Source: Ceratodon purpureus
Taxonomy: Eukaryota > Streptophyta > Bryopsida > Pseudoditrichales > Ditrichaceae
Direction: 5' to 3'
Length of the DNA stretch: 64,000 nucleotides
Assembly (NCBI GenBank): GCA_014871385.1
Contig: CM026422.1
Coordinates: 15,921,917-15,985,916 of the forward strand
This document shows, piece after piece, positions 460-39,556 of the stretch (positions within the stretch are counted from its first letter, which is position 1; each line of letters begins with the position of its first letter). The notes under the pieces are model-generated. The model saw only the letters and a program-made list of their open reading frames with translations, had not been told where the DNA came from and ran no database searches. Both the position numbers and the translations under genes were made by a program.

Positions 460-3400
460 ATGGTTGCAGGAGCGATGATGAGCGTGAGTCATGTTTATAT
501 TGGCTCTCGCTCGGTTGAGGCGTTTGTTCGAGAGCCTGGTTCGTCGTTAGCAACTGATGTGCCGTCATCTCGTTGCTCTGGGGGGCTTCGTCTTCCTTCG
601 ACGTCGCGTGTTGCTCTTTCCTCCCGTGCTGCGTTAAGCGGTGGGTCGAAGTTCTCCTGCTTGCTGCGAGGGGGCAGGAATGGAGCTGCAGGGATGAAGG
701 GTGCGGCGATGGGGATTACCTGTGCGGCAGCGACCTCGACCGTGGACTTGAATGCGCGGCGGCCGGAGGTGGAGACTGCGATCGACGAATCTATAGGCAA
801 TTGTATTTCTGAGACCCATCTCAATGATACGATTCCAGCGCTGGGGCCAAAAATTCGTGGCAAGGTGAGCAAAAAAATTCTTTTCTCATTTGCGAGAGTA
901 CCTAATTGCTCCATCTATTCGGGCGGGCTGTCGTCCTTATAGTCAAAGGTTTCTAGAGAGCGCCTTCTTGTTTGGTATGCAGTTGCGGTGACATAATCTT
1001 TCTATGTTGGCTTACCTTCCAATTTGCTCTTCTACACTAAATTCGCGCCAACATTGTCTTTGCGGCAGGTGAGAGATATTTACGAAGCCGGAGATTACAT
1101 GGTGTTGGTCACCACTGATAGGCAAAGTGCATTCGATCGCGTGCTCGCCTCTGTGCCTTTCAAGGGCCAGGTGAGTTTGGAAACGCCTTAAACCCTAAAC
1201 CCTTAGCTTTGGGGTTGCTGAGACAAATCCTCTTTACAGACATATGTCCGGGCTTTGTATGTTGAGAATTTTTGGTTTGGTTTGGTTTGGTTTGGTTTGA
1301 TGCGGTGCAGGTGTTGAATCAGACAAGCGTCTGGTGGTTTAACAACACCAAGCACATTACAGATAATGCGGTTGTCAGTGCTCCCGACCCAAATGTCACC
1401 ATTGCTAAGAAGTGTACAGTCTTCCCTGTTGAGTTTGTAGGTAATAATCTCTCCACTTTCTTTGCACTCTTGTTGCACATTGTACATTCTGCACCAAATC
1501 AATTGGAATCTATTTAGACTCATGTTTTTTGTTGGCATGTTCAACTAGTGATAACGATACTTTGAAAGGCTATCTCAACTTTTAGAATTTGTTTTGGAGC
1601 CGTTTGTGCAACTCTTTTTGGTGAAAATGAAGAATCCTAGGTTATCTGGATTTGTGTTGTTTGGTAGTTTTGATGGGCTAGTTGATATTTAGTTGCTGTG
1701 CTTGTCCAAAAGTATGAGCAGGCAGTTCAATTTTTCTTAGGTTATTAATTCCAGGGAAAATTTTATGGTCAAGTGCCATTCGTTGTTGGACTGAAATTGG
1801 TTGTTTTTTTTTCGCCAATTTCGGTAGATGGGCAATGATGCGTTGAGAGCAACTCTTCCATTGTATTCTTGTGTGTTTTCCAGTACGAGGGTTTATGACT
1901 GGCAGCACGAGTACTTCACTATGGACAGTTTATAACCAGGGTGTCCGCAATTACTGTGGCAATGATCTCGTTGAAGGTAACGAATTGATGTTTATTTTCC
2001 TTCACTATCGTCATGCTTGAACCTGCACGTTCTTTGAATGTTTGTTTTGTCCATCCCATAATCATAGTTCTTGGATAAGTATTTTCTTTCTTATGGAACG
2101 GTGCCTAAAAGTGGTGCTTCTATTTCCAGGAATGAAGAAGAATGAGAAGTTGGAGGCTAACATAATAACTCCTACTACGAAGGCTGCTGACCATGATGTT
2201 CCTATTTCAGGAGCTGAGGTCCGTAATATATACAGAATATTTTCGAAGTTTTCCTCTGCTTTATGTTTTCTGTTCCGGGAGACCTCACTGAAAAAAGTTT
2301 GAGTGCTTCAGCATCTTCTGTAAATTGTGGTACGACTCTTGAGAATTGCTGCTATTACTTTACGTGAAAGCTAACGCTGCGTGGTTGATGGTGAGGTTTA
2401 CAGATAGTTGAGCAAGGGCTGATGTCAAAGGAAGATTACGAGGAGGTCAAAAATAAAGCTCTTGCGCTTTTCAAGTTTGGACAGGTGCAATTCCAATCTA
2501 CTTTGTGAAAATTTATCCATCATATACATCCAGAATAGTACAACACTAAGCCGTGCTATAATTCATTGATTATCCGCAGGAGGTGGCTCTGAAGCATGGG
2601 TTGCTTTTAGTTGATACCAAGTATGAGTTCGGCAAAACCAGTGACGGAACCATAGTCCTCATTGATGAGGTGAAGATCTTACTCTCTGTTGTCATTATTT
2701 TGTTCGCCAGTTTCATGTCAAACCTACCTAAATGATGGGCAATCTTTGTTTATTTGCACAAGGTGACATAGGAATGTTAGGAGTCCTGTGTTGAACTTTA
2801 ATTTTGAAAGTTCCCCTGCACAGGCTGGATGCTTTATTGCTTTCTCAAATGCAAAATACATTCTGCATCTTAAGATCGAGTGTGAGTGCCTTTCATGTGC
2901 CTTTCATGTGACCTTTTCTGACCGGGCTTAGCCTCGATATGATGTAAACAAACTAGCTGATATTATTTCCTTACTGCAGGTGCATACTCCAGATTCCAGC
3001 CGTTATTGGATAGCAGCCTCTTATGAAGAAAGACACAGGCAAGGACTAGAGCCAGAAAATATTGACAAGGTTTGTTATTTCGACAAGAATTGACAAGTCA
3101 ATTCTCATCGTCATTGCGAGTGTGTATATTGTTTTTTAATACCGGTAGCAGAATTGCGGGGTGGGGGGGATCAAATCCTTAGCCCAACCGGAACTTTCAG
3201 AGTACCAATAGTACCTTTATTTCGCTGGTTTCAGTGGGTTTTCTCCTGTTATATGCTCCTTATTGAAATACCCGTGTCACGACGCTCTTTTGAGTTGCAG
3301 GAGTTCCTGCGCCTATGGTTCAAGAGCAAGTGCGACCCTTACAATGACAAGGTACGTGAATCCTGTTGTGAAGTGCAAAGTCTTTCAATGATTCCCATTT

Positions 3401-4128
3401 TATGTTCCTTGGTAGCTGCCTTTGGGTGATTATTGTGAACATCAGCGCATGCTCGTCGAGGGCTCCTCATCTGTTGCCACTTAGCAATTGATCTATTTAC
3501 TAAGCGAATCGATCCAAGCAGTTGTTGATTTTTGAAGAAATCCAAAGATGCGCTTGTATGGTGTATGGGTAGTATCTTTTGCAAGTTGTAGTGAGGCATC
3601 TCTTTATTCGATTCTGAAATAGCCCAGGCTGATGTCTATTGACTGTTTTGCAGGTGTTGCCAGAGGCACCAAAGGAACTTGTGGCAGAGCTGTCTTGGAG
3701 GTGATTATTCTACTAATGCCTTTTTCATCCCTTCTTGACCACAAATACCGAATTTGCTGTTGTCATTTTTTTCGTTGTCCTTGAATTACTGAAATACTTC
3801 GGATGCCTTTTCTCAGGTACATAGTGTTATACGAAACTATTACTGGAAACAAATTCATGCTGCCTGAAACAAAGGTGAGGTTTTAATCTCTTTTTCAGTC
3901 TATTTTGGGTTTCGTTCTTTATATGTTGCATTCAGGAGAACCCATTTTACTTCACACGTTGTCGTAGAATCTTCTCTCTACTTACGATCTATACTTAAAT
4001 TGACAAAAGCAACAAGATATCTTGTATCATATGCAATGAAATATTGACATTCCTTATGACTGTGGCAGGAACCTCTGCATGATCGCATTGCACGAAATGT
4101 GCAGGACACTCTTCAGCGCTTGTTATAG
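460..4128 (+). CDS. PUR7: Phosphoribosylaminoimidazole-succinocarboxamide (SAICAR) synthase, plastid-type, 12 exons
   Basis: The enzyme joins aspartate to CAIR with ATP in de novo purine synthesis, which in plants runs in plastids. I join 12 GT-AG exons in one open frame: 460-864, 1069-1170, 1311-1440, 1884-1976, 2130-2218, 2404-2484, 2580-2669, 2980-3069, 3301-3351, 3654-3700, 3817-3874 and 4069-4128 (TAG). Family signatures lie in order: [23 protein letters not shown] in pieces across exon 2, WWFNNTKHI in exon 3, [13 protein letters not shown] in exon 4, VDTKYEFGK in exon 7 and HTPDSSRYW in exon 8. Exon 1 adds about 110 Ser/Arg/Ala-rich residues before the conserved core, as expected of a transit peptide. 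ATG 460 is the first in-frame start; ATG 475 or 478 would change little. A short G-rich tract and a TTTGG microsatellite lie in intron 2. The gene looks intact. Confidence 0.93.
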
Positions 4129-7100
4129 AAACGTGTCATTCTTAATGCTCAATTGAGATGTAATTCAAAACGGGGCTTAAATCGTCCATCAGTTTTGCTA
4201 AACGACGGTAGGTGACCGGTAGGCAAACAGATACGAAAGATATCAGCAAGGTAGCAATGTGGTTCTTACATTTCTTTATAAAACCATGCCGTATCACTAG
4301 GATTCACCTGGATCTCATTCTTACAAGTTTGGTATCCGTTCCTCCCCAAACTGTTTCATCTCAAGAGCGGTGGAGTTCTGAAGTTGCTTTAGAACTGCGA
4401 AACATCTCATCTAAGTCACTGTAGTTTCGAGTCTTTGGTGAAAAATCGGGGTTCATCAATAAACCTTCTCCATCTTTTTTTCAGGAGACTTCGGAAATCT
4501 GTTCCTTGAATATTCCCTTACTACTCTCTGCAATGCAACAATCAGTCAGCAATTTGGGATCAAGTGTTCGCAGTTTTCACATTTGTGCAACCAGTTGTTA
4601 ATTCACTAAGATTGTGTTAGTAGAGTAGAATGGAGCTGGATGTCCCATATCGTTAGCAGCACTTGAGGTAGTATGAAGGTATATGAACAGCAAGGAAAGA
4701 GTCGAGAATTTAAAAGGGTCGGTTGGTTAAATATACCATGCAGGTCCTCGGACCTGTGCTGTATGGACTATCAAGACATATGGCCGGCACTATTTTTGGG
4801 CTCATAGAGGGTTGGCACGCGTTGCCGACCCTACCATTGCAAACCTGGAAAGCGGAATGGTACCAACATGAACAGCTGAGGATCCGTTTGAATCTGTACT
4901 TAGGGAGCAGGTTTGTTACTTTGTCCATAAATAATTCCAAAATTAGAAAATCGAAACAATCGGAAATTTTGAGGATGAAAATGAAAATTTGAGACATTGT
5001 TTTTAGTGATATTTGTCTGTTTTTAAGCCATATTAAGGCTAATTTTAGTGATTTCTTTTATAAAAACAAGAATTGAAAAAATAATCTTTTGGAAGATGAT
5101 TGTTATGTTTCAAAAACAAAATTGTTGTTCAAGGATGGACAGACCAGCTTTCCAAGTACGGTAAACCAACCTAACATTTGAGTACATGAAAGTAGATCAT
5201 ATTTGTGGGACATCATTTGAATAGACATTATGAATTTTTCAAGATGTCTATTCTTGATTCTCGTCATAGGCTTTTACAATAAGATGGTGTACATCCTTCT
5301 GAACATTATTTATTAAGTTCTTAAGATTTGATTAGATATAGTTACGGATGAAATTAAGCATGGGCCTAGAAATAGGCTTGTTTATCGTAAAGAAATTTCT
5401 AAAAATATTATCTCTCCTCCAACATCTCTTTGAAGTTAATTTCTGAAATTCTTTAACTATGTTTTATCCAAAGCACTTTATAACGCCATCTTTAACCACT
5501 AAAGGCTTTTGAGACCACATTGTGGTTGTGGCACTTGTCAGCAGGCTTTTCTAAGGTCTCAGAATTTAAGTATTTTTTGAAATTTATACTACATTTAGCT
5601 TTCAATGGTACTTTTACAATGGCGCAAATTTCAGAGCATTTTTAGTTAGCAAAACTCGACTTTATAATCAATGGAAAATATATAATTTACTCTTCAAAAA
5701 AATCTAGAAATTTGAGTTTTACTCCGATTGCATTAAAATTTTATTTGTTTCTTTCTTTCATTGACATAAACATATCTACCGTTCAATTTTCTAATTGGAC
5801 ATGTTGTTTAGATTACCCTTTTGGTAGTTTTAATTTTGGAGAATATGAGGCATTTTCAACACACCCCTTTTCACAAAATCAGGGTTTTTTCTCCTTTCCA
5901 ATCCCGTGCGAGGCTCAAACTTTGTGAGCCTATATTTAACTTCCACATCTAGAGGAATTGATGATCCTCCATAGTTCAAATGTGTTTGCAATGTATACTT
6001 TTTGGGCGTCAAAACTTACATATACTGCTGGGGCAACCTATTAAAAGACTTTTACAGTGACTTCAAACCTTATAATCCCGCAATTTGTATAGTGAAATGA
6101 GCTCAAATTTGGTATACACCGTTTTGGACAAGCTAGCTACAAGATCCTATGGTCAGATACTCCATTTTATCTTTGATTTTAGAAATTAGTAGGTTGCTAT
6201 TAGTATAGATATGCTTTTTTGGGGTTTGTCTCCAAAAATACCTAAAACGTTTAGAGTTTAATTCATAAGAGAAAAATGATAACAAATATTATCTTTACTT
6301 TCAATAGTAAAAGATTAAATTATATTATTAGAACAAGATGTGAAAATTCATTAGATTTCTTGATTATATGGATTAGAAGATTATAGTATTTTAAACGAAT
6401 AAATAAAGAGCCTATAATATAGCTTCAAAACACTTTGTTATACTTTGATTTAAAGTTTTCAAAATAATGAGATTTGAGGAGATCTCACCATCACAAAAAA
6501 AACCATGTTAACTATATTAGTATCAACTCTTAGATATACCAAAAGATGTTTAGAATTTTCAAAACAATTTTTAAAATAAAAATATGGTTAAAATACAACC
6601 CCAAAAAAATATATTGTTGTCAATACAAACAATGAAATTAAAAAATAATTAAAAATTCTAACAATGAAATCATAAGTTATGAGTAATTAAAATACTAAAA
6701 AATAATTAAAACTTCTAACTTTTACGTGACACAAAAAAGTTATTTTCCACCTTGCCTAGAATAAATACAAAAGTAATTATGTACATACTCCAACATATTT
6801 GAATGTTTTGAGGAAAAATAATCTGTTGTTTTTTTCAAAGTGAATCAGTGTTAGAAATCATTGAACTTCATAAAGCTCCATCAGTTTTAAAGATGAACGC
6901 ATTGTAAAGTGCATTGCAATGACAGTAGAATCTAGTTTTATGAGACCTTATATTTAATTATGTTCAATTGTTTTTTGGCTTACACTTTAAAAATAATAAT
7001 GTGTAATGAAACTTTCATGTATGTGACTTAACTTCCTAGTTAGAACATTAAATTTTATCAATTTCTATTGCTATTTTCTTATAATATATGGTACAACTTT

Positions 7101-16108: not shown

Positions 16109-16744
16109 TTAACCCCTAAAGCATCAACTCAACAGTTTTGGTATGATTTTGGGTTCGGTCTGGTTCCATATGAGTCAAATTTTACCAAATGTGGTTGAAA
16201 CTTTGGCACATCATGGAAAATTGTCATATCTTTCTAACAAGACCAAATTTTACTTCATTCGGGCCCATAGTTAACCCCCATAGGATGTTGCAAGCCGTGG
16301 TGGCTTGGTACAGTTCGTATTCTCCTGATTTGGAGGGCTTATGGTCTGTATTTGCAAGTGGACCCTGAAAGGAAAATGTGGGCATTGTAGTGTTTTAGCT
16401 CACTGTATTTTTTAAAATTTAAAAATAAATATGTGTAGCCCAGTGGACCTCCCCGATTGCCGTATTCTGTGTATTCTGTTCCTGGACTTTGCATACAGTG
16501 GTCTTTCTACTCTCCTAGCGTACCTGACACGGGAAGGTGCCAGCGCGGATATGGTCACCGGCTGGACAGGTCACATAGCAGTTACCCTACTCTAGCCTAG
16601 TCTACTGCACTCGAGCAGAGCAACATTGGATCCAACAGTCGCATTGTGTTTTCGAGAGCTGCGAAGGGGATTGACGTTGCCTGAAGTGAGGTTTGCATTC
16701 ATGTTGGGAATGCTCAGATTTGGCGGTAGGGAGTTGTGAGGGCG

Positions 16745-17425
16745 ATGGCGGCTACTCATGAAGATTGCGTCTTCAATGAGAGGGGGGTGTTGGGATTCGT
16801 TTCGAGGTTTAGGAGAGGGGCAAGTAGATTGCAGTTTGGGAAGGGCAGGGCGCGGTGGTCTGGGGTATTGAAGGAGGTGCGGGGAGATTGTTTGATGGAG
16901 GCCAACCTGTTCACGGAAAGCTCGGTAGCAGAGCATCCGATTGGGGCTGTCGAGGCCTTGAGGACTTGGGTGCGAGGGCTGGGGCGATCTGAAGGAACCG
17001 CAAACAAGGTGGTGCAGTTGTTGCAGGCGGAGGTGCTGGATCGGGAGCCCAGACCAAGAAGTTGGAATCGAAGAGGGGTTTTCGGTGCAAACGACCAGCA
17101 TCGATACTTGTGGTATCGACACACGGCGCGCTTGCTGGGCTGGAAGGAGCGTGAGAAGTTCCCGGATTTCGTAACGTCGTTGCTGAGGGACAAGGTTTTT
17201 CCGAGCCATGGAGCACCCCGCCAGGATGTCTCTGAAGCAGCGCGCGAGGGCGAAGTCAGTACCTTCACCGGAGTCAATTCAGGTGGGAGATTCGGCGCCA
17301 AGACTTCATGCCCTGGCGAGGGTAACATCCGGCATGGTTGGAGCCTTACTCTTCCCCGATCAGGTACGTGGACTCCCCTGAATGCATTCCCCTGCTTTCA
17401 CGAGCAATTTATTTTCATTGAGTAA
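16745..17425 (+). CDS. Unknown ORF at the left of the piggyBac element
   Basis: An open frame of 226 residues from ATG 16745 (226 sense codons, TAA 17423-17425). A good splice donor, CAG|GTACGTG, at 17363/17364 would end it after 206 codons, so the last 20 residues may be intron. It is rich in Arg, Gly and Glu, with no membrane segment, repeat or motif that I recognise. The region is much richer in GC than the flanks. It could be a first exon of a longer transposon gene, a second transposon protein or a captured host exon. No acceptor downstream joins it to the transposase frame without a stop, so I keep it separate. Confidence 0.35.
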   Translation: MAATHEDCVFNERGVLGFVSRFRRGASRLQFGKGRARWSGVLKEVRGDCLMEANLFTESSVAEHPIGAVEALRTWVRGLGRSEGTANKVVQLLQAEVLDREPRPRSWNRRGVFGANDQHRYLWYRHTARLLGWKEREKFPDFVTSLLRDKVFPSHGAPRQDVSEAAREGEVSTFTGVNSGGRFGAKTSCPGEGNIRHGWSLTLPRSGTWTPLNAFPCFHEQFIFIE

Positions 17426-17844
17426 ATGGATTAGGGTTTAGGGGTTCCTTGCTGATTTCGTGTAGAGGTTTAGCAGAAAAGATTTCAAGGACATGTTGAA
17501 CCTATTGATTTGAAAGACATGTTGTGGGGGAATGTGTGCTTGTCGACCCTGGGCATGTGCGTGGTCATCGTGCGTGCTGGATTGCAGCGTTGTAGTCTTT
17601 GAGTCTCACGGGAATTTTTCCAGGTCGAGGGGTTCATTGCAGAGTCTGTGAGTCCGTCAATCTTCTGCGAGTGAGTTTAGGATCTTGTACATTTTGAGGC
17701 AACGGCGATCAGTTCCCTGAAGTACTGAAAATCCTGGAAGTGGTTCAGAATTCTGACTTGGTTGCCTGGTGATTCGTTTATTGTAGCTGTTGATTGTGCC
17801 AGGAAAACACTCGAAGATTCTGACTGGTTTCGAGGGGGGTGTAC

Positions 17845-20800
17845 ATGAGGGATGTGCAGGCAGATGTCGAGATGAGTCACCCAGGGGACCAAGGCCCATT
17901 AGCTGCGAAGGGAGTATCGGGACGCCTCGGGGAAGGGGAAGTGCAGGGGAAGAAGAAAGAGAGGAAGCCAACGGTCAAGAAAATTGTGACCGCCGAAGAA
18001 GGAGGGGGGAAGGTGAAGAGGACATACAAGCCCCGGGTTCCAAAAGGGGCTGTAGGCGAAGCGCAGATGGAGAAAGCGAAGTCTGTCAGGAAGCCGAGGG
18101 CTTCGAAGGTGGTACAGAGCGAGGCGGGGTTCGAGAAGGTGAAGAGGACGTACAAACCGAGAGTGCCTAAGGTGGCGGGGGCCGAGGCGGGAGTGGAGAA
18201 GGTGAAGAGGACCTACAAACCGAGAGTGCCCAAGGTGGCGGGGGCCGAGGCGGGTGTTGAGAAGGTGAAGAGGCATTACAAACCGAGAGTGCCGAAGGTG
18301 GCGGGGGTGGAGAAACTGATCAGGCCGAGAAAGCCAAGAGCTCCGAGAGGGAAGGCACAAGGAATTGAACGGGGGGGCGGGGAGGCCTTGGGAGCAGAGG
18401 CAGGGGCACCGACTACGGCATCAAGAAAGCGCAAGGTGCATGTGCCGAAGGCTTTGGGGGAAGATGGAGCGGGAGGGGGGACAGGGTCAGATGCGGAAGG
18501 CGAGAGTTTGGAAGAGGGAGAAAATCATAGAGGCCAGGCAGGTGACCGCAACCACGAGCTTCGACGAGGCCAGGCAGGGGCGCGAAAAACAGGTAATTCG
18601 CTACACTCTGTCACTGTGGGGGATACATAGGAGGGAGTGCACCGGCGGAGGCTTTGGGTGAACATTGTTTGCAGCTCTTGGATTCTTTGGCTGCATTAAT
18701 TGGGAGTGACTTGGGCTTGGGGCCTGACTTGCTTCTTGTTGGAATGGCAGGGGGAAGGAGCCGGAAGCTCGCATGGGCAGAGAAGGGCAAGTCTAAAATG
18801 TTGAACCCGAGGAAGCCGCAGAAGTGGGTGCCGCCACTGGAGATAAGACCAAACGAAGGGGTGGGGGTCACTACGCGAGCACGCCGGACTCTCCACTACC
18901 AGTGGCAAGAGAAGGTCGACGCAGATGAGGCCATCTGGGACGTCTTGCAGGAGTTCCAGGCGCCTGAGTCGCAGGGAACATGCGACTCCATGGGCACACG
19001 TAACTTGGAGTTCGAAGAGCATGTATATGAAGAGCCTGACTTCTTTGCCACAACTCCGATTCCAGCGCGATCCAGCGAGGGTAGAGGAGGGTCCCCTATT
19101 GCAGAGGAGGTGCTTCCAGACCGTGTTGAGAAGCAGGGGACTTGGAGCGTGGAGCGCGCTGGATGGGCGGTTCTGATACCAAACAGGTTTTTGTCGGAGT
19201 ACTCATTCCACACGGGCCAGACCCCGTCGTGGACGCAAGGGGATGTCGTGGCAGAGTACACGCATGGGTCGACATTGAAGAAAATGGTTGTCTGCGAATT
19301 GGGGGGGTTTCAGGAGGAGATGCACTTTGAGGCCTGTGACGTTCGAATGGCGCATGGACCCGAGATGAGGGCGCAGGGCAGCGAGGGGGGGTATGGTTAC
19401 GGGTGGAACAAGCGCATGCGCTGTTACATGTCGAAGGATTATCCGACCACAACATTGAAGGTTGCTCCTGCTTTGCGAGGGGGAGGGGGAGGGTCACGCG
19501 AGGGCCATGCGGCAGGGTGGGAGCCGCGACCAATTTCAGAGTACACGGAGCCAGGAGACACAGAGGGGCCAGACGGCACCCAAGATTCGACTGCGAGGAC
19601 TACCTTCCCCCAGGTGAGCACTTCCCTCCCAAGTTACATGCTGTTAGAATCTGAACTGCAGGGGGGGGTGATCGAAGGGGGGGGGGGCAGTCCAGGCTGC
19701 TGACTCGTCGGAAGAAGAATGGCTGCCGGCGTTTGAGGATGTGTACGAGAGCACTGATGAGGAGTATGGTGACTACACCCCACGCCGACCCCCAGTGCCG
19801 GCAGATTTCCAGGAGTGGTTAAGAACCGACTCTTCATTCAAGCCCACGCGGCTTGACAAAGAGCAGTTACAAGCCTTCTACAGGGAAGAGTCGTGGGATG
19901 CAGACAGCGTCTCCCTGCTCGGGAGTAGTGATAACTTTTGTGGACCGACTCCGGGTTGTCGGCTTGAGAGGGGTTCGGCCTTGCCACAACCGCAAGACAT
20001 CTTTGAGGAGTATTGGACAGTGGAGACCCTTGCCCGAATTTGCCTGGAGACAAATCGGTACGCCAGAGAGTTCAGCGGGGTCCCTCGTGGCACAGAAACA
20101 AAAGGAGGTCCGAGGTGGAGGGATGTCTGCGTTGATGAGCTCCGAGCCTGGCTTGGAATTTGTATCTTGATGGGGGTGAAGAGGCTACCGTCTGTGAGGC
20201 ACTACTGGATGCGCACAGAAGGATTTATATACTGCACCCTGATTTCGAGTGTCATGAGTCTTGCGAGGTGGGAGGAGCTGCTTCGGTGCTTACATTTGGT
20301 CAATAACGAGGAGTTGGAGCGAAATGTAGCTTCCAGGCATTTTGATAGAATCGCAAAGACGAGATGGATCATTGACATGTTTGTTAGTGTGTCCAAACAG
20401 ATTTACAATCTGGAGCGTGAGATCACAGTTGACGAATGTGTCATTCCTTATAAGGGAAAGTATTGTTTTATTAGGCAGTTTATGCCTGACAAACCCATCA
20501 GATTTGGTATCAAATGTTGGGTCTTAGCTAGCTCGAAATCCAGATTTGTATCTAACATCGAAGTTTATTTCGGTGAAGGCACGGGTTGTGGACCGCATGG
20601 GTTAGGCTACCATGTTGTGCTACGACTGATTGCAGGACTTGAGCGCCGATGGCACTGCCTGGTTGTCGACAACCTGTTTGCATCTGTGAATCTCTTCCAC
20701 GAGCTCATGGTACTCGGCATGTGGGCAACAGGGACTGTCCGGCGCACAAGCAAGAATCTGCCCGCTGGCCTGTTCCGGGAGATGAAGAATCCGGAGAGGG

Positions 20801-21414
20801 GTTCCCTGGTGATTCGTACCCACGATCATAGGCAGATGGGAGTTGTGTCTTGGCAAGACAAGTGTCTTGTGACACTGTTGAGTTCAGCCGCAAGCCCTTG
20901 GGAGCCGGGGGTGGCTGTGTTGCGCAGAGTGAAGGGCATGCGAGGTCAGCTTATAATTCCCTCCTCTCCTATCCACATCCAGTACCAAGAGTACATGAGA
21001 GGAGTGGACGTGACAGATCAAATTCGATCCAACTACTCATCCCAGTTGAAATCACATAAATGGTGGCACAAGCTTTTTTTTTTCATTCTTGACCAGAGTA
21101 TGGTCAATTCGTTTGTTGTCTATTCTTCTCAGATGGAGGCTCTGGGTTTGAAGGTTAGAACCCACATGCAGTTCAAAATTGCAGTGGGCAAGCACCTGGT
21201 CGCATGCTGGACGAAGTCTAAGCCGAGGGCAGCAAGTCAGGCCCCTCCCTTTCCGAAGAAGTTCCCCCCCGTACACTCCCACTGGCAATCTTCTCTAAGA
21301 CGAAGCTGCGTTGAGTGCGGAGTTATTGGACAGTGGTTCTGCCCAGCTTGTGGGAATTTGTGGATGTGTCGGCAAAGCTGCTACCATGTGGTTCATTCGC
21401 GTCTACGTCACTAA
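17845..21414 (+). CDS. piggyBac-type transposase with N-terminal basic repeats, 3 exons
   Basis: DDD transposase expected to cut and paste at TTAA. My model joins 17845-18592, 18751-19613 and 19696-21414 in frame (about 1109 residues). Both introns have GT and AG ends and matching phases. A TGA at 17821 precedes ATG 17845 in frame, so the start is likely there. Exon 1 encodes five to six repeats of about 21 residues built on KVKRTYKPRVPK, similar to AT-hook arrays and perhaps DNA-binding. Exon 3 holds the catalytic core: ITVDECV (Asp about 783, codon 20431), LVVDNLFAS (Asp about 862, codon 20668) and RGVDVTDQ (Asp about 975, codon 21007). Spacing is similar to that of known piggyBac enzymes. 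The C-terminus has a cysteine-rich finger (CVECG...FCPACG...CRQSCYH). No stop or frameshift breaks the core. The unusual length comes from the N-terminal half. Confidence 0.85.
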
Positions 21415-22378
21415 CTCCTGTTTCCTTTGACTTGTCATTTTTGAGTGCATGGGTTTCAGGACTTGGCAACGCACCTGCAAGGGCAGGGGACGGGAGCAGA
21501 GCTTCTGTACCACACACCGCCTCGGCACAGTGGCAACGGCGAAGCCCCCCCCAGGTTCCGACACACCTGCTGAGGGCATGACGCATTTGTTGCAGCTTCT
21601 TGCGCTATGAGATCACTCCCCCCTACTGTTATTTTTTTTCAGCCAGAGTAGGGACGGCAGAGGAGGCCACGGCCACTTCTTTGTATGTAGAGTCGACCCC
21701 TGCGTGGTCGTTTCATTTTTGGAGCACTGTCTTTTTTTCAACCTCACTCAGTAAAGGAAATCTCTGTTTTTAAATGGCTGAGCGGGAGTCTATTGGGGAT
21801 TCAGGGGTTCATGCTTTCTCATTCAAGTGCTTTGTGTTTCCATTCTGTTGTCCACGTTGTTTATCCTGCGGTTGTGTTGCCTCGGCTTTGGTCGCACATG
21901 TCCCTGTTTACCACGTTGGGTGTTATTGTTTCTCTTCGGCATGGCTCTGTGAACCCGTTAGGTGCTGCAGGTTTGCTTCTTCCATAAAACCCTGTTGAAT
22001 CGCCTCCCTTCAGTAAATTGCTTTTTTAATTTCCTTTTTTTACTCCTTTTTGCTTCTCTGCATTCCAATGTAAAGCCTCATGTGAACTTCTGAATTTGTC
22101 GCAGGTCTTGAGCGCCGGGTGCACCATCCCTTGGATTCTGTGCCTAAGGTGAAGTCTATAGATGCCCCCCCAGTTGGGATTCTGACTCTTCAGAATTGAT
22201 CTTGCTCGAGTCAGCTTGATTGTCCTTCAATTGGCCATGGTTTGTTTGGTGGGTTCTACTACTCTGCATGACTGTAGAGTAATGTTTTTTTGGCTGCTAT
22301 TCGTCGTAGACTACACTCTGTAGTTTTGGTTTCTTCCTGACAAATCTATTGTTTTTTTGATCCAGGGAACATAGTGAT
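21415..22378. other. piggyBac interior between transposase and cargo
   Basis: About 1 kb without a recognised gene. It should include the transposase 3' end. A possible small exon follows an acceptor at about 22105 (open to a TGA near 22199), but it has no recognisable homology. Confidence 0.35.
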
Positions 22379-22549
22379 ATGTCCTCAAAAAAGTATCGTC
22401 ACGACAAGCGGGTGTATTTGGGAGCTCTAGAGTCTGTGCCCCATGTTGTGCATAAATTTGTGGAGAATATACCGAAGCCGGGGGAGCAGCTTCGAGACGT
22501 GAGGGTACTGTACCACATCACTGGTGCTATCAAACATCAAGAACATTGA
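22379..22549 (+). pseudogene. PRP8: PRP8 fragment, N-terminal region (captured)
   Basis: A 56-codon frame from ATG 22379 to TGA 22547-22549 contains [20 protein letters not shown] and [13 protein letters not shown]. This is the strongly conserved N-terminal segment of PRP8, the core U5 snRNP protein of the spliceosome, which is about 2300 residues long. Identity stops after ITGAI, where the next residues in PRP8 (SFVNEIPW or similar) are replaced by sequence leading into the CWC22 piece. An acceptor-like TTTTTTTGATCCAG ends at 22365, so the fragment may begin at an original exon edge. It lies inside the piggyBac element and is clearly not a functional PRP8 gene. The host PRP8 should be elsewhere. 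Confidence 0.82.
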
Positions 22550-24571
22550 ACATCAAGAACATTGTACCGGAGCTTTTTGGGGAAAATTTGATCAGAGGAA
22601 GGGGACTGTTCGCGAGGTCGTGTATGAAATCTCAGATGGCCTCTCCCACTTTCACTCACGTCTTTGCATGTCTGGTTGCCGTAGTAAACACGAAGTTTCC
22701 TGAGCTGGGTGAATTATTGCTGAAGAGGATCATCCTGCAACTCAAACGAGCTTTTAAGAGAAATGATAAGCCCGTGCTGCTAGCTGCTGCCAAATTCGTT
22801 GCGCATCTTGTCAACCAGCAAGTTGCACACGAGATTTTGGCGCTTGAGCTGCTCACTGTTCTCTTGGAAAAGCCCACCGATGACAGTGTTGAGGTGGCTG
22901 TTGGATTCATCAAGGAATGTGGATCCCTTCTACAGGACGTATCCCCTCAAGGGCTGCATGGTATTTCTGAGCGGTTTCGTGGAATTTTACATGAAGGTGA
23001 AATCGACAAGCGTGTGCAGTTCATGATCGAAGGTCTTTTTGCTATTCGCAAGGCCCAATTCCAGGGCTTTCCTGCAGTGTTACCAGAGCTAGACCTTGTT
23101 GATCAAGAAGACCAGATTACACACGAGCTGTCTCTTGAGGACGAGTTAGATCAAGAGACGAGTCTTGATATTTTTAAAGTAGACCCAGATTTTATAGAAA
23201 ACGAGAAGAAGTACGAAGCAGTAAAGAAGGAAATATTGGGTGATGATTCAGCTGGTGAAGTTGAAGACGGGGATAAGGAATCTGGTGATGAGGATGACTC
23301 TGACGACTCTGAGGATGAAGAAGACGAAGAGGAAAGGGAAGCCCGCATGATTATCCAGGATGAAACAGAGACGAATCTTGTGAACTTGCGGCGTACCATC
23401 TACCTTACTATTATGTCTAGCGTGGACTTTGAGGAGGCTGGGCACAAACTTCTAAAAATCAAGTTGGAACCTGGACAAGAGGTATTTATTTTGTCCTTAA
23501 TACGTTCATCTGTGTTCTTATGGATCTCTTGTCAAACCGAGGGGTCGCTTGTTGTGGAAATCCATAGCATTATTGGAATACCTGCTGGCACAAAGAAACA
23601 GAACGAGCTTTTCCCACGTGTTTGGTATCAACACATATGTAATACGTGTTTGTCTTGAAAATTACACATAGGGTGAAGTATTCTACACACAGTGAAGTAC
23701 TTAATGGCCATGGCCACTGTGCATAGGATTGTAATGAATGAGCGAAATGGAAGCAAACAAAATGAAGTGTGTAGGCGTTCCCTTGTGGATGTATAAGAAA
23801 TGCTAACATACGACATGTGAAGTAAAATACCCTGACGTCTTTGTTGTGGATGACTAATCTTGTTGTTTTATTTCTGCGCAGATGGAGCTTTGTGTCATGC
23901 TTCTGGAGTGTTGCAGTCAAGAGAGAACTTATTTGCGGTACTACGGTCTTCTCGGCCAGCGGTTCTGCATGATCAATCGTGTTTACCAAGAAAATTTCGA
24001 TATTTGTTTTGTGAAACAGTACTCGATGATTCATCGTCTTGAAACGAACAAGCTTCGTAACGTGGCGAAGTTCTTTGCTCATTTGTTGGGTACGGATGCG
24101 CTTCCCTGGCAAGCGCTGGCCTACATCAGGCTTACCGAGGAGGATACGACTTCATCATCACGTATCTTCATCAAGATCCTTTTCCAGGAGCTCTCAGAGC
24201 ATTTGGGACTGCGGAAACTGAACGAGCGTTTGAGCGACCCCTTGATGCAGGAGTCGCTTGATGGGATCTTTCCGAAGGACAATCCCAAGAATACGCGGTT
24301 TGCCATCAACTTCTTCACTTCCATCGGTCTTGGTGGTCTTACAGACAGTTTGCGCGAGTATCTCAAGAATATGCCACGCATGATCATGAACCAACACGTA
24401 CCTGTGGCAAGCGACAATGAGGCTGACTCCGATGCAGACTCGGACACTTCTGGAGGGGGCAGTTCCTCGGATAGCAGTGGTTCAGATTCAAGTAGTGATA
24501 GTTCTTCCAGACAACCGAGTTGGACTGAGCCGAGGGTCTTCAGGTGCGCAAGCAAGGGTACAATATGTTGA
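22549..24571 (+). pseudogene. CWC22: CWC22-derived reading frame lacking its N-terminus (captured)
   Basis: CWC22 is a spliceosome factor; its MIF4G domain recruits eIF4A3 for exon-junction-complex assembly. The copy starts abruptly at conserved NIKNIVPELF, part-way into MIF4G (with IRGRGLF and SCMKSQMASP), and runs through KRNDKP, HLVNQQVAHEI, an acidic linker, then the MA3 domain (ETNLVNLRRTIYLTIMSSVDF, RTYLRYYGLLGQRFC, FFAHLLGTDALPW, KNTRFAINFFTSIGL) to a Ser/Asp-rich tail. An intron is kept at 23482-23881 and splicing restores the frame, so capture was at DNA level, not by reverse transcription. No stop or frameshift appears over about 500 codons, which is unexpected for junk. The first internal ATG is 22624. 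A trans-acting truncated protein is possible but unproven. From about 24508 the sequence reads as PRP8 in another frame. Confidence 0.85.
23482..23881 (+). other. Intron kept inside the captured CWC22 copy
   Basis: Donor GAG|GTATTT and acceptor TTTCTGCGCAG|ATGGAG flank about 400 bp. Removing it joins KLEPGQE to MELCVMLLECC, the known continuous CWC22 sequence. This shows the captured segment came from genomic DNA or an unspliced precursor. Confidence 0.8.
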
Positions 24572-24660
24572 ATCTTCTGATCCTCAGAAAGAATCTGAAC
24601 TACTTGCATTTGGACTACAACTTCAATCTCAAACCTGTGAAGACCCCTACTGTGAAGGTG
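24508..24660 (+). pseudogene. PRP8: PRP8 fragment, internal region (captured)
   Basis: Starting at CAGACAACCGAGTTGGAC the plus strand reads QTTELD. After a small deletion it reads [16 protein letters not shown] and continues through [20 protein letters not shown]. This matches the very conserved PRP8 segment around residue 500 (family sequence [20 protein letters not shown]). The small deletion at about 24527 shifts the frame between TELD and GLQV. The match ends near 24660, where a GTGTGG follows GTGAAG, possibly an old splice donor. With the fragment at 22379 it brackets the CWC22 copy. Confidence 0.82.
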
Positions 24661-25321
24661 TGGAGCCCTTGCTTGAGAGTGGACAGCAGTACACCTACAG
24701 TACTGCAGCGGGTGGGAAGTTGCTCTTTGATCCCCGCAGCTGCTTCATCGACTCTCAATGACCAGAGTATTGGTGCAGTTCAAACCCCGGTAAGCAGTCT
24801 AAGGTTCATGCGAACAGACTGACTTCTTTGTAATTCAAGGTCTCTGTTTTCCAAGTTTTGCTTTTTGCCTACATTGCACAGAAGCTTACATGCATTTCTG
24901 TCTTCTGTTTCCGCAGGTGATCTTTCAGAAGCCACCGGTCAGCACTCCCCAGTACCCAGTCGCTTGTACCCAGTCACCAGCTCGCACTACCCAGTGGCTT
25001 TCGAGTCGGTTTGCAGCCCCCAGCATATTCTTCAGTCACCAGTCACCGGTCCCAAGTTTACAGTTTGCAGCCACCAGCGGATTCTGCAGTTTGCAGCCAC
25101 CGGTCACAAGTTTGTTGTTTGCAGTCCAGATTGGGTGCACCATCACCGCGATTCGACGGGCAACTCTAGGGATTCAGTGAATGGCCGCCAGAAATTAATG
25201 TGCCGCTCTCGCCTAATTTGCCTCAGCCCTAATCTGTGTAAGTCCCTCCCCCATACCCCATTGTGCGTCCTGTTCGATTCGTGCTCCCCCTTGCGATTTG
25301 TCGCACAAGCTTGAGTCTGCT

Positions 25322-25352
<31 letters not shown>

Positions 25353-25528
25353 ACGCCCCTTCTCCTCGCACAGCTCCTTCTCCCCTCCCCCTTCCGTGGC
25401 TTCCCTTCTCCTTCTCTGCACATCCCTCCATCTGCTCTCTTCCTCCTCCCCCCTGCTTTCTCCCCGCACTTGTTGTAGCTGTCTCTCCCTTTCTCCAGCT
25501 TCCCCTCACCGTTCTCTTACTTGCTGCC
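24661..25528. other. piggyBac interior with low-complexity words and a 30-C tract
   Basis: An open frame (to 24822) continues from the PRP8 fragment without recognisable homology. 24920-25130 repeats short words such as CAGTTTGCAGCCACC and CAGTCACCGGTC. A run of 30 C lies at 25323-25352, inside a pyrimidine-rich stretch that reaches to the B3 gene and may act as its promoter or leader. Confidence 0.5.
25323..25352. repeat. Run of 30 C
   Basis: Uninterrupted C tract inside the piggyBac element, about 180 bp before the B3 gene start. Its length may be uncertain because of sequencing. Confidence 0.85.
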
Positions 25529-26693
25529 ATGGCCTCGCAGAATTCGGGGGAGGTCGACTCCGACCCTCGGGACCTCATCATCCGCGAATTGGACGCATGC
25601 CGGGCCTACTACTTCGCGACCCACATCCTGTCGGCTGTTGACCTTCACCGCCTGGTAAGATTCCTACCCTAATTCCCCCATTTCCCTTCAATTTCTCCCG
25701 CATTCTAACCCGGGGCTTGGGGGCCATGATGGGCGCAGGAGATTCCGAAAGACTTCCACGAGAGATCGGGCTGGCCGTCCCACCTCGACTGCGCCTTGGT
25801 CATCTCCAGCACCGAGAAGCAGGAGTGGCCTCTGCAATTGAAGCGGTTTGAGCCTGGCTCGAAGAAGTACGCCTTCAGCCTAGGCGAAGACTGGGGCGAG
25901 TTTTGTGAGGACAACCACGTCGGCCTCGGGGACCTGCTCGTCTTCAAGGTCGTTCACGACACCTGCCTGGTGGTAACGATCCACCGCCACCGCCCCCGCC
26001 CCCCAACCTGCGGGAAGAAGAAGGTGAAGCCGACAGCGACCCCTTCCGCAGGTGCCTCGACTCCAAAGCCCTGTTCGAGCCCCGCACCGTCGGGGAAGAA
26101 GAAGAGGAAACTTGCAGCGGCCCCTTCTGAAACCCCCCCAGCGCCCAAGCCCGAAGTGAATTCCGAGGAGGTGGAGCGCCCCGAGAGCCCTGTTCAAGCA
26201 CCCGCCACTCCCAATCCTATTTGGGCCCCCCAGTTTTGCAAAACCCTCGTTCGTTCTCACCTCAAGCTCGGAGGAGCAGCGCGTCTTGTAAGTACCAACC
26301 CCCCTTGTATCCCCTTGCATGGTCAATTCTGTTCCTTGCATTTTGCATACCCCCTGCCCTGCATCTAAATCTCCTCAGGTTCCTCTGCTATTGTCTCTCT
26401 ACTGACCTCCCAGGTTTCTGCATCAGGACATTCCTACTCTTTATTGGCGCACCTACGGGAAGGAGCAGTTTGATGGACACTTCTTCACGCTTGGCGGCCC
26501 CCTCAGCGAAGGAGTTGTGAAGAGTGTGCTCATTGTCACCACGAAGCAGACGTTCTGTCTCTTCACCTCGGGCTGGTTGGAATTCTGCCATCGCAACCAC
26601 CTCAAACTGGGCGACACTTTACTATTTGTCAAAACCAGCCCTGCAACCTTCGAGGTGTCGAAGAAAGTCCCTGGGAAGTTCCTGTTTGTGTAA
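25529..26693 (+). CDS. Two-B3-domain DNA-binding protein carried by the piggyBac element, 3 exons
   Basis: B3 is a plant-specific DNA-binding fold. Exons 25529-25654, 25739-26287 and 26427-26693 (TAA) join in phase 0 to 313 residues. The first B3 unit has EIPKDFHERSGWP, WPLQLKRFEPGSKKYAFSLG, DWGEFCEDNHVGLGDLLVFK (residues about 43-120). A Lys/Pro-rich linker follows. The second unit has DIPTLYWRTYG, FTSGWLEFCHRNHLKLGDTLLFVK (residues about 226-305). Two B3 domains with a basic linker resemble the REM branch. The acceptor at 26426 must be used; the nearer CAG (26413) leads to TGA. ATG 25529 sits in tgccATGG. The codons are GC-rich, unlike the AT-rich flanks. All joins are open, so it may be expressed. 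It is either captured host DNA or a proper transposon gene. Confidence 0.8.
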
Positions 26694-27722
26694 ATCTTGG
26701 CTAAACCTAGGTTGCGGGTTTTGAGACATTTCCGAAGTGGCCATAGCAGTACTGTTCTCTTCCTCCGAGACCTGCTCCTGCTTTGCTACACTGCACTTTC
26801 TTCCAGTACTCTGCATCTCTGCATTTTCCTTGTGACTTTACTGTCCTCCCTTTTCTCTCTACCAGGATAGATGCTTCTTATTTCATTCTGGACTTAGGCT
26901 CGTTTCCATTGCTGTTGAACCTATCTCTTCACTGTGAGCACTGTGCGGTTTATATTTGCTGAGGGACTTAGACTCAGCCGATCTCCAGACTAACCGATCT
27001 CCTGACTTTGAGCACCGTGAACCTTACTTGTACAGCTAGGATATTTTCAGGTGCAATTTCGTAGTTGCTATGACTGTGAATTTTGCTTTTCATATATTTG
27101 ATGCATTTCTTCTTTCATGATTGATTCTGCAATGGAGAGGCAGGTTGCTTGCTGATCGCACTAGTTGCTTGAATTTCGAGTTACATGTGTGTTTTCTAAA
27201 TCCACAGTTTTGTTCCTAAACTGTAACCGCTCCTCATGCCGCAGGGGTGTTGGCAAGGTGGTTGGGACGCCAATGTCCCAGGACACTACCCACCCGACTT
27301 CCTGGCCTTCACCCCATTGGCCCATGCTGGAGCACTCACCCTCCACATGGATTGCAACTGCTTCTACTGGTCACCCTAAACCAGTCCATACCTTTCGTAG
27401 GCAGTCACACTGGTTCCAGCAGTGGGGGTTCACCTAACACTGTTGACTGATACAGATGTCTAATACATATGTATCACTGGGTATACTATTTTTGCAGCAC
27501 TTGGCACCCCCCCCTACTTCACTTTTTCTAGAAAATTATCTACACATCAGATTCCCATTTTTTTTTCATATTTTACTTCCAAGATTCACATACTATGTGC
27601 TAAAAAAAATTTATGCCTAAATACAATTACCCAACTAGTCAAGTTCACTGTTGTATGCAAACCAGTCCTCAAAATACGCAATGTACTGTTCCATGCCTTC
27701 CACACCAAACATCCTATGGGGG
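26694..27722. other. Right end of the piggyBac element
   Basis: No gene is recognisable between the B3 stop and the right TIR. The ORFs at 27161-27450 are short and have no family features. The sequence becomes AT-rich over the last 250 bases. The right TIR AACATCCTATGGGGG ends at 27722. Confidence 0.5.
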
Positions 27723-29350
27723 TTAAGAAATAATTTGTGTTTAAAGATCAAAATTCAATTTAGGGCAGCTCGGGCAGGTTTGGAGTGGTGTACCAAAACT
27801 GTGATAGTCTACAGTGACTTCCAAATGATCCTTTCTGAAATCGTTTCAACAATTTTTTTTAAAACTTGATTTTGAAAAATCCAACCGTAGGATCTTGTTC
27901 AAAGCCATTTACTTAGTCTACATTCCAAGTTTTGTAAAGATTGACCGTACGGATCTTGAGATATATTCAGTCAAAGTTCCAAGTTTTATAAAAACTTTCA
28001 AACAGCTTCGTCAGCCATTTTTCCTTTACCATTTTCTCCTCCTAAACCACAGTATATGCTGTAAAATTCATATCTATTTTGGATTTGTTTATTTTTTGGA
28101 TTTCTTTCCTCTACAATATCTTTTCCATACCAATGCATGCATATACCGTTCGGATTTCAAAAATAGATGATCTTCTTAGGCATTTGTAGTGTGGAAAAAG
28201 AGCCAATGTATATGCATTTCATTTGACTCCCATCACTGGAAATATGGTTTTCCAATGCTTTTGTGTGTTGTTTTGTCTTCGATTTTTTTGTGCATACTCC
28301 CAACTCACTTTGGAATCCAAAACTAAAGAGCCTCCAACCACACGATCTTCAAAGATTGGTTGTTTCACTCTCCGAAGGGTAGCTGTCTCTGCCGAGCAGG
28401 ACCAAAAAAAAAAATTCTCTCAAGTTCAAACCTTAAGATCTTCCAAACGGCCAGGAGCTACAATCTAAAATTTTGTGTACACATACATGTACAAGTTAGG
28501 TACTAGATCCTTTGGTTAGAATCTTTAAAATAGGTTTGAATTTGCATATTTTTGCCTTGAACTAAGACAAGGCAGAATTGAGGCAAAATTTGGGATTCTA
28601 TGGCCAAATGCTTTAGGGGTTAAAAATCGTAGACACAACAAACCTTGAAACCCTAGCAGAATCAAAGACGGTGTCTGAAGAGTGTCAAGTGTTTCTATGC
28701 GTTCTTCTTGCAGTCACGTAGCTCGTGCTAGTTGTAGTTGGCATGTAAAGAGACGTACAAGTGGCCTTATTTGTAACTAGGCATTTCTTATTTCCATATT
28801 ATCACATTTCTAACTAGTTCTCTACAATCACACTTCAAAGTTATCACTAGAGAGTTCTTTATTATCACATGCATTTTGGTCACCGAACATGTGTCACTAA
28901 GGGGTGCAGAGTGTACATGTAGAACATGAACAATGTCCTACATGCTAAAAAAGGGTTCTCCGGGGAGTTCGATAGGTATCATTTAGTGGCTCCGTAGTGT
29001 AATATTAAATCATGCAACAGTAATAGAAAACAATATGTAATCGAGTTATCGGTGGTATAACCTTAAATGATTTAAAAAACTGCAAATTCTAATTAATTGT
29101 GTTATTGTTTGTTTTCTCCAACATACTAGGAGATAAGGAAGAATTTGGTGGTACCTCTACATTTCGTGTGTAAGAGCTTGGTGATCTCTACATTCATGAA
29201 AATTTAATTTTGCGGACAAATATGACAAGGGAGTTTACTTCTGCATAATAGATTTTGTATTTTATTATATTAGAAAATCAAATAATTAGATTAAGGTTTT
29301 TTCTTAAGAGAGCCAAGTTATAGGTGTATTCATTAAGTTGTCACCATTAA

Positions 29351-35366: not shown

Positions 35367-35798
35367 TGGTAAAGGGAGGATTTAACCACTAAACCCTAGC
35401 CTTCACAATCCCATCAAAACCCAACAAAACCCAACTAAACTAAGTGCTCCAAACCCTCATAGAATGCTGGAAATGTATAACACAAGTGCAAAAAGAGGTC
35501 AAAACTGCATAAAATGGGTCAAAACAGCCTCAAAACATGGTACAGCAGCTCCTAACTCCTAATAAACCTCTCTGACTCTACGTGCTTTAGTGTAGAATGA
35601 TCTCCCAAAACTCTAAAACTACCTTTTATCCACCCTGAAAACTGCCGGAATTCATCCAGTCGGCTACGATAGAATTCATCCAGTCGGTTGTGACAGAGTT
35701 GATCCAGCCAACTAGATGACTGTCGGGGACATGGATGAAAACTGCAAAACAGTTAGTGGAGACTAAGGGAGGAGAGATTATGGAATCTCCGGTTAACA
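35367..35798 (-). repeat. Long terminal repeat (3' LTR in element orientation)
   Basis: Matches 39125-39556 at the same length of 432 bp with about 16 substitutions and no net indel. Confidence 0.9.
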
Positions 35799-39124: not shown

Positions 39125-39556
39125 TGGTAAAGGGAGGATTTAACCACTAAACCCTAGCCTTCACAATCCCATCAAAACCCAACAAAACCCAACTAAACTA
39201 AGTGCTCCAAACCCTCATAGAATGCTGGAAATGTATAACACAAGTGCAAAAAGAGGTCAAAACTGCATAAAATAGGTCAAAACAGCCTCAAAACATGGTA
39301 CAGCAGCTCCTAACTCCTAATAAACCTCTCTGACTCTACGTGCTCTAGTGTAGAATGATCTCCCAAAACTCTAAAACTACCTTTTATCCACCCTGAAAAC
39401 TGCCGGAATTCATCCAGTCGGCTACGATAGAATTCTTCCAGTCGGTTGTGACAAAGTTGATCCAGCCGACTGAAAGACTGTCGGGGACAGGGATGAAAAC
39501 AACAAAACAGCTAGTGGAGACTAAGGGATGACAGATTAAGGAATCTCCCGTTAACA
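39125..39556 (-). repeat. Long terminal repeat (5' LTR in element orientation)
   Basis: 432 bp; partner of 35367-35798. It starts the element in minus orientation and is followed there by the TGG-initial primer site candidate. Confidence 0.9.

Follow-up and report, generated by a model that had tools for sequence, protein, structure and literature searches.

Does the 11.4-kb block that lies between perfect inverted ends in the moss Ceratodon purpureus move as one piggyBac element, host genes included, and how did those genes come to be there? The block was examined in a stretch of 64,000 nucleotides (C2:15921917-15985916 of an assembly of 362.5 Mb in 151 contigs; hereafter the window), for which an earlier note, made from the letters alone, had described a cargo-bearing piggyBac. 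Sequence comparison indicates that the element very probably belongs to a large, gene-capturing piggyBac family of autonomous type. Its core consists of a transposase gene and a gene with two B3 domains, and in one branch of the family (clade A) the spacer between them contains fragments of host genes that vary from subfamily to subfamily and, as assigned, are all in the sense direction.

Insertion site, ends and copies

The sequence TTAA followed by CCCCCATAGGATGTT was found exactly at 16271-16289 (+) and 27708-27726 (-), with 11,448 bp between the two TTAAs, as the earlier note had reported. A TTAA target duplication is thus present, and the inverted ends are short and begin with CCC. Allowing up to three mismatches, the end occurred five times in the window, against 1.48 expected. 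Genome-wide, the exact 19-bp combination of TTAA and end was present 24 times in forward and 24 times in reverse orientation, and the reversed control gave no occurrence; 38 of these 48 ends form pairs with a spacing of 2.0-45.8 kb, and 10 are single.

The flanks of the block were joined over one TTAA and the genome was searched with the joined sequence, yielding 1,023 candidates, 40 of which were scored. All 40 were repeat copies unbroken across the insertion site, with 89-92% identity, and the relative fetched as an empty site (L063) contained a single TTAA and was identical at 383 of 417 positions. Unbroken relatives in a high-copy repeat, together with the single TTAA, indicate that the 11.45-kb block is a clean insertion. 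Window 16271-27726 is therefore a TTAA-flanked piggyBac insertion within a high-copy repeat.

The same unit, bounded by terminal inverted repeats (TIRs) and carrying the same PRP8 and CWC22 cargo, was found at two other loci, E5 on C5 (11,282 bp) and E17 on C11 (11,280 bp). Both were 97.9-98.8% identical to the window copy over two long aligned blocks, and their flanks differ. Outside the cargo most stretches differed by 0-0.8%, indels aside; 1 of 84 bases differed in a B3 intron, and the repeat-rich stretch before the B3 gene differed by about 1.9%. These copies and the related empty sites bear out the proposal that the block moved as one unit, cargo included. Nor was a transposase seen alone between the ends with cargo outside them: among the 14 TIR-bounded elements read whole (the window's and 13 fetched), all eight with a DDE part had additional sequence assigned to host genes between transposase and B3, the spacers of E5, E7, E14 and E17 being assigned by DNA or protein similarity to sister copies. 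Misassembly, or inverted ends that arose by chance, has a negligible probability: no point in its favour was found, and the 48 exact ends against none in the control, the three loci with the same unit and the 40 related empty sites all speak against it.

Transposase

The earlier note had called the piggyBac transposase apparently intact. Its identity is upheld by the match to DDE_Tnp_1_7 (Table 1), but its intactness is not, as the N-terminal and DDE parts lie in different frames in both the window copy and E5. The run of G at 19677-19687 has 11 G in the window copy and 10 G in E17, where a single frame of 938 amino acids covers both parts; a genuine indel, splicing or an error of sequencing may lie behind the break. 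Open transposase frames are present in two cargo-bearing elements, E17 and E19 (910 amino acids). The acidic motifs ITVDECV, LVVDNLF and RGVDVTDQ, which presumably supply the catalytic aspartates, lie at residues 251, 330 and 443 of the 580-residue part, and its C-terminal end is Cys-rich by motif (CVECG at 546, CPACG at 557).

The transposase gene probably includes the two upstream open reading frames (ORFs) in Table 1, of which ORF1 gave no match when searched against Pfam. The ratio of nonsynonymous to synonymous change (dN/dS) between subfamilies was 0.05-0.19 for the transposase and 0.3-1.0 for ORF1; a simple counting method was used, and values for which dS exceeded 1, of which there were several, are unsure.

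The B3 gene

The B3 gene of the window element has three exons encoding 313 amino acids, and its second B3 domain scored 28.9 bits against a Pfam cut-off of 30.1. All three exons were present in 10 of the 14 elements read and absent from E1, E3, E4 and E16, which are deletion forms of 2-3 kb. At 28 of 28 further loci fetched by position, a B3 gene followed the transposase (12 of 12 and 13 of 16 within the fetched stretches; L041, L042 and L044, whose stretches end too early, were counted from the list of B3 matches). Among the B3 matches listed, at least 42 of 75 transposase loci, itself a minimum number, had a same-strand B3 within 15 kb downstream, one had an opposite-strand B3 and none an upstream B3. 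Between subfamilies the B3 dN/dS was 0.14-0.27, evidence of purifying selection. A tree built from 28 B3 rows placed copies that share a cargo together; L032, L035, L041-L045, L047, L052 and E11 are left out of this tree (one B3 part missing in the fetched stretch), and the rows for L039 and L040 represent a nested antisense copy, not their own B3. In the alignment used, a portion of exon 2 is missing from the B3 of E12.

Judged by its position and conservation, the B3 gene is a second core gene of the family. The B3 gene of the earlier note stands, but its place among the host-type cargo does not: capture of B3 was ruled out, since the gene is conserved and occurs throughout the subfamilies read.

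L039 and L040 each contain a further B3 gene, antisense and grouping with clade B, at 3236-3977 (-) and 3200-3971 (-), respectively, in transposase-direction coordinates; it separates the CACTIN cargo from the B3 gene that belongs to the element itself.

Host-gene fragments in one spacer

Captured host coding fragments are present between the TIRs of the window element, and they lie between the transposase and the B3 gene. The presence of spliceosome-gene pieces was confirmed: the PRP8 piece contains PRO8NT (Table 1), and the CWC22 piece matched a solved chain named CWC22 homolog at 3.3e-114. In the genome CWC22 gave six matches at four places, of which three are copies of the element and the fourth is a gene on C3. 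The window piece differs from the C3 gene by 5 mismatches and no gap over 1,958 bp (99.74% identity), intron included, and the intron has no mismatch at all; the pieces in E5 and E17 have 8 and 12 mismatches, respectively, and one gap over 1,896 bp. The right joint of CWC22 is identical in the three copies; the left joint differs, and in the window copy is marked by a 16-bp duplication. The CWC22 piece of the window is still open over 400 amino acids. The PRP8 piece is more diverged, as judged by eye with no donor comparison, and so looks older.

Four PRP8 fragments of equal score (75% amino-acid identity) lie at C3:17782291, 17825805, 17841583 and C5:4774816, with no adjoining transposase listed; a B3 match at C3:17789122 lies near PRP8 fragments, and another element may carry them.

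The earlier note had described one cargo-bearing piggyBac. The cargo was verified, but the element is one of a family with many different host-gene fragments in the same spacer. Counting same-cargo elements once, 19 clade-A slot groups were read, and 14 of them had an assigned host gene, comprising 14 core genes and GH3 (Table 2). Outside the slot E15 and E19 have 88-93% identity, and both edges of the slot are common to them, with SPT5 in E15 and CCT3 in E19; L033 and L034 have 95-97% identity in the flanking stretches, and an APC1 match is found in L034 alone. Similarity between elements with different cargo ends between the end of the transposase (L035) and about 0.8 kb past it, and in most cases picks up again 270-600 bp ahead of the B3 start; in a few pairs the common stretch is longer, up to 1.5 kb, and for L032 there was none.

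The direction of the cargo was tested with ORFs of at least 70 amino acids, chosen by length alone in 14 slots and searched against Pfam at 1e-3. The 103 sense ORFs contained 19 Pfam families and the 116 antisense ORFs none. PRP8 families were counted from both L032 and L041, whose slots are sisters; only the first 3,100 positions of the L039 slot were used, which excludes the nested antisense B3 copy, and the sister slots L031 and L040, the antisense ORFs of E elements and clade B fell outside the test. By lineage, 16 assigned host fragments were sense and none antisense. A Plant_NMP1 match (5.5e-6) among the slot ORFs is tied to no particular slot.

Donor loci were searched for seven of the 14 core genes. 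Nucleotide identity to the donor was 99.7% for CWC22, 98.3-98.6% for CACTIN and 96% for separase; amino-acid identity was 98% for PRP22, 95% for TRRAP, 93% for PRP8 (L032) and 90% for BRR2. Further PRP22 pieces at 84, 80 and 64%, a few kb after three other transposases, indicate that cargo also ages in place. The TRRAP piece gave nothing against solved structures at 1e-3. The L037 piece gave only a chance-level match there (0.3), and ORFs of L037 were without a Pfam match; its gene is named through the 96% donor, which continues into a Peptidase_C50 separase. Stops interrupt the cargo of L041 and E17 and other BRR2 and PRP22 pieces. Relative to the donor, CACTIN has 9 synonymous and 6 nonsynonymous changes in L039, and 5 and 14 in L040. 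Selection of the cargo as protein was considered and is unsupported, the CACTIN changes being few and uneven and several other pieces having stops.

Four DEAH-helicase matches of equal score at C2:12418747-12437787, with an exact spacing of 5,980 bp, are perhaps a tandem gene array or an assembly repeat.

Table 1. Features of the piggyBac element in window coordinates
Feature	Position	Strand	Remark
TTAA target-site copy, left	16271..16274		empty relative L063 has a single TTAA
15-bp TIR, left	16275..16289	+	exact; also genome-wide
ORF1, begins MAATHEDCVFNERGVLGF; probable first transposase exon	16745..17363	+	end assumed at GT donor; conserved in other subfamilies
ORF2, lysine-rich, 63-bp coding repeats; probable second exon	17845..18591	+	ends approximate
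Transposase N-terminal part	18597..19703	+	stop-to-stop frame, 368 aa (amino acids); in single frame with DDE part in E17
Transposase catalytic part, 580 aa	19672..21414	+	DDE_Tnp_1_7, residues 107-481, Pfam 4e-72
PRP8 N-terminal exon piece, older cargo	22367..22532	+	PRO8NT 4.1e-21
16-bp tandem duplication at PRP8/CWC22 joint	22533..22564	+	
CWC22 fragment, young cargo, 1,958 bp	22544..24501	+	intron 23482-23881 kept; 5 mismatches to C3 gene
54-bp short tandem repeat between cargo and B3 gene	25009..25124	+	
B3 gene exon 1	25529..25654	+	joints as in annotated protein P0072 (KC19_7G149900)
B3 gene exon 2, first B3 domain	25739..26287	+	B3 5.7e-10
B3 gene exon 3, second B3 domain, stop	26427..26693	+	B3 1.1e-6, just below cut-off
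15-bp TIR, right	27708..27722	-	exact
TTAA target-site copy, right	27723..27726		

Table 2. Host genes assigned to clade-A slots
Host gene	Element or locus	Remark
PRP8 and CWC22	E2, E5, E17	
TRRAP	E13	E14 is a sister
eIF3c	E11	part common to E13 by DNA
CCT3	E19	part of stretch common to E7 by DNA
SPT5	E15	
None assigned	E12	element without DDE part
BRR2	L029	
COPB1	L030	L031 97.9% alike
PRP8	L032, L041	sisters
None assigned	L033	
APC1	L034	
None assigned	L035	95% donor on C9
None assigned	L036	
Separase	L037	
None assigned	L038	one weak match below cut-off
CACTIN	L039, L040	
GlyRS	L042	
ORC6	L043	
PRP22 and GH3 pieces	L044	

Origin and role of the cargo

As the CWC22 intron has been kept, the fragments appear to have been copied from genomic DNA, which would have happened during repair of the gap left by excision. 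The 16-bp duplication at the joint, and a left joint that differs in E5 and E17 where the right joint is the same, suggest that repair synthesis switches template and so brings host sequence in. Unspliced nascent RNA might instead have served as the repair template, which would join the sense direction of all assigned fragments with the retained intron; RNA templating should not, however, require capture on a fixed strand, and we consider this route improbable. Under genomic gap repair, the fragments would settle in the spacer because insertions into either core gene would kill the element, and captures in antisense would disappear, since the antisense RNA they give against an essential gene would harm the host. 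The cargo would then be a passive or RNA-level passenger, without protein action.

Capture might also be purely passive, from open, constantly transcribed genes, with accessibility and ease of recognition accounting for the excess of housekeeping genes. The mixed fragments of single slots (PRP8 with CWC22, PRP22 with GH3), the simple repeats at joints and the decayed cargo all resemble by-products of repair. Taken alone, this explanation does not account for the strand asymmetry (19 families in 103 sense ORFs, none in 116 antisense) or for five spliceosome genes among 15, and we hold it to be possible, if somewhat short of an even chance.

A more active role was also considered, in which fresh sense pieces of single-copy essential genes, splicing genes above all, make the element costly to silence, since small RNAs against it would hit the host gene too, and selection on the element renews the cargo. 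We take 14 of the 15 assigned donor genes to be core cell machinery and essential, and five of them to be spliceosomal, which would fit. Perfect 21-mers common to the window element and the CWC22 locus on C3 number 1,850; for the CACTIN cargo 778-861 of 1,141 are shared. Some cargo, as the CWC22 and CACTIN identities to their donors indicate, is far younger than the subfamily splits; the transposase beside the fresh CACTIN is only 74% like the window's. The idea is already in print for plants, in section 11 of a review (PMC13317346), where it rests on maize elements of several kinds. Against it, clade B multiplied although inspection by eye of the ORFs listed for it showed no host cargo, old decayed cargo lasts (PRP22 pieces at 64-84%), and conserved genes are easier to recognise, which biases the sample towards essential ones. 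We regard such protection as rather unlikely.

Clade B comprises 12 loci with a transposase identity of 58-62%, all with B3. The absence of visible host cargo at these loci, where the search was less thorough than in clade A, makes cargo loading look like a clade-A habit. Six of the loci (L045, L046, L047, L048, L050 and L053) have an ORF of an MKR.F... family between transposase and B3; one such ORF was run against Pfam and gave no match.

Several observations weigh against the family as reconstructed here, an autonomous-type element with two core genes and a spacer of sense cargo acquired by gap repair. No host gene was assigned in five of the 19 clade-A slot groups (E12, L033, L035, L036 and L038). 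The window copy's transposase may be frameshifted and the copy non-autonomous, and gap repair is read from the joints only. Closer pairs within subfamilies had a B3 dN/dS of 0.31-0.40 where defined, and E15/E19 one of 0.33, from few changes, and the B3 copies of E11 and E15 contain stops. The antisense B3 of another element beside the cargo in L039 and L040 indicates that the spacer tolerates antisense DNA. Young cargo that is still open (CWC22 in the window; CACTIN, 372 amino acids) makes a protein role possible there.

Relation to known elements

The three acidic motifs, Cys-rich end, TTAA target and CCC ends are traits of the piggyBac superfamily, which the moss elements share together with the DDE_Tnp_1_7 domain. 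The moss family differs in having a second conserved gene, which encodes two B3 domains, and host-gene fragments in the spacer. Of the transposition cycle, the related empty sites reveal the insertion step rather than the seamless excision known from the superfamily.

Pack-TYPE elements (Pack-MULE, Pack-CACTA and others) are likewise plant TIR elements with captured host coding fragments, but are defined as non-autonomous (PMC8903248), whereas E17 and E19 combine cargo with a predicted open transposase frame, the window copy being possibly frameshifted. A further difference is the placing of the moss cargo in one spacer, and the word piggyBac does not occur in the text of PMC8903248. Teratorn of medaka is also a large cargo-bearing piggyBac, but is fused to a herpesvirus genome (PMC6431247), whereas the moss cargo consists of fragments of host housekeeping genes; no viral gene was found in the cargo read, whose Pfam matches were all host-type (elements of 28-46 kb lie outside this set). 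An extra conserved gene beside the transposase is found in VANDAL elements (VANC) and in KIU-carrying elements (PMC13317346), although superfamily and protein are different. By analogy B3 may act like VANC, and its protein would bind DNA of the element itself and serve as an accessory factor or against silencing. In the transduplication of histone H3 by hAT elements in fungi (PMC6710886), a DNA transposon has likewise captured a housekeeping gene and amplified it, there a single gene captured as a transcript, here 14 core genes, of which the one compared with its donor has retained an intron.

piggyBac is reported to have been isolated from plants too (PMC10813416), and papers on fern and other plant genomes mention it a single time. 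A search of titles and abstract openings, mostly outside the subscription literature, returned no moss piggyBac, no B3-coding piggyBac and no such cargo; the sole paper with both piggyBac and Ceratodon purpureus uses the word piggybacking. The present elements add a piggyBac lineage, here from a moss, that has two genes, one of them a DNA-binding gene of plant type. One genome offers many captures at one site, with graded ages, sisters that differ in cargo and a sister clade with none seen, and so is a natural system for testing whether essential-gene sequence, once captured, shields transposons from silencing. The captured PRP8, BRR2, CWC22, PRP22 and CACTIN pieces could also mislead the annotation of splicing genes in this model moss.

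Other observations

On C6 (110.5 Mb), which we take to be the sex chromosome, two TIR-bounded stretches of equal length (28.4 kb; 93273702-93302158 and 93338257-93366713) lie 36 kb apart and are perhaps a segmental duplication. Elsewhere in the window, positions 4711-4836 (+) match the U11 small nuclear RNA of the minor spliceosome (61.8 bits, cut-off 39). Direct repeats of 432 bp at 35367-35798 and 39125-39556, 96% identical and 3.8 kb apart, look like a pair of long terminal repeats, and the TIR-like matches with three mismatches at 35454 and 39212 fall inside them. Positions 61929-63430 form a tandem array whose copies, 93-97% alike, recur about every 210 bp.

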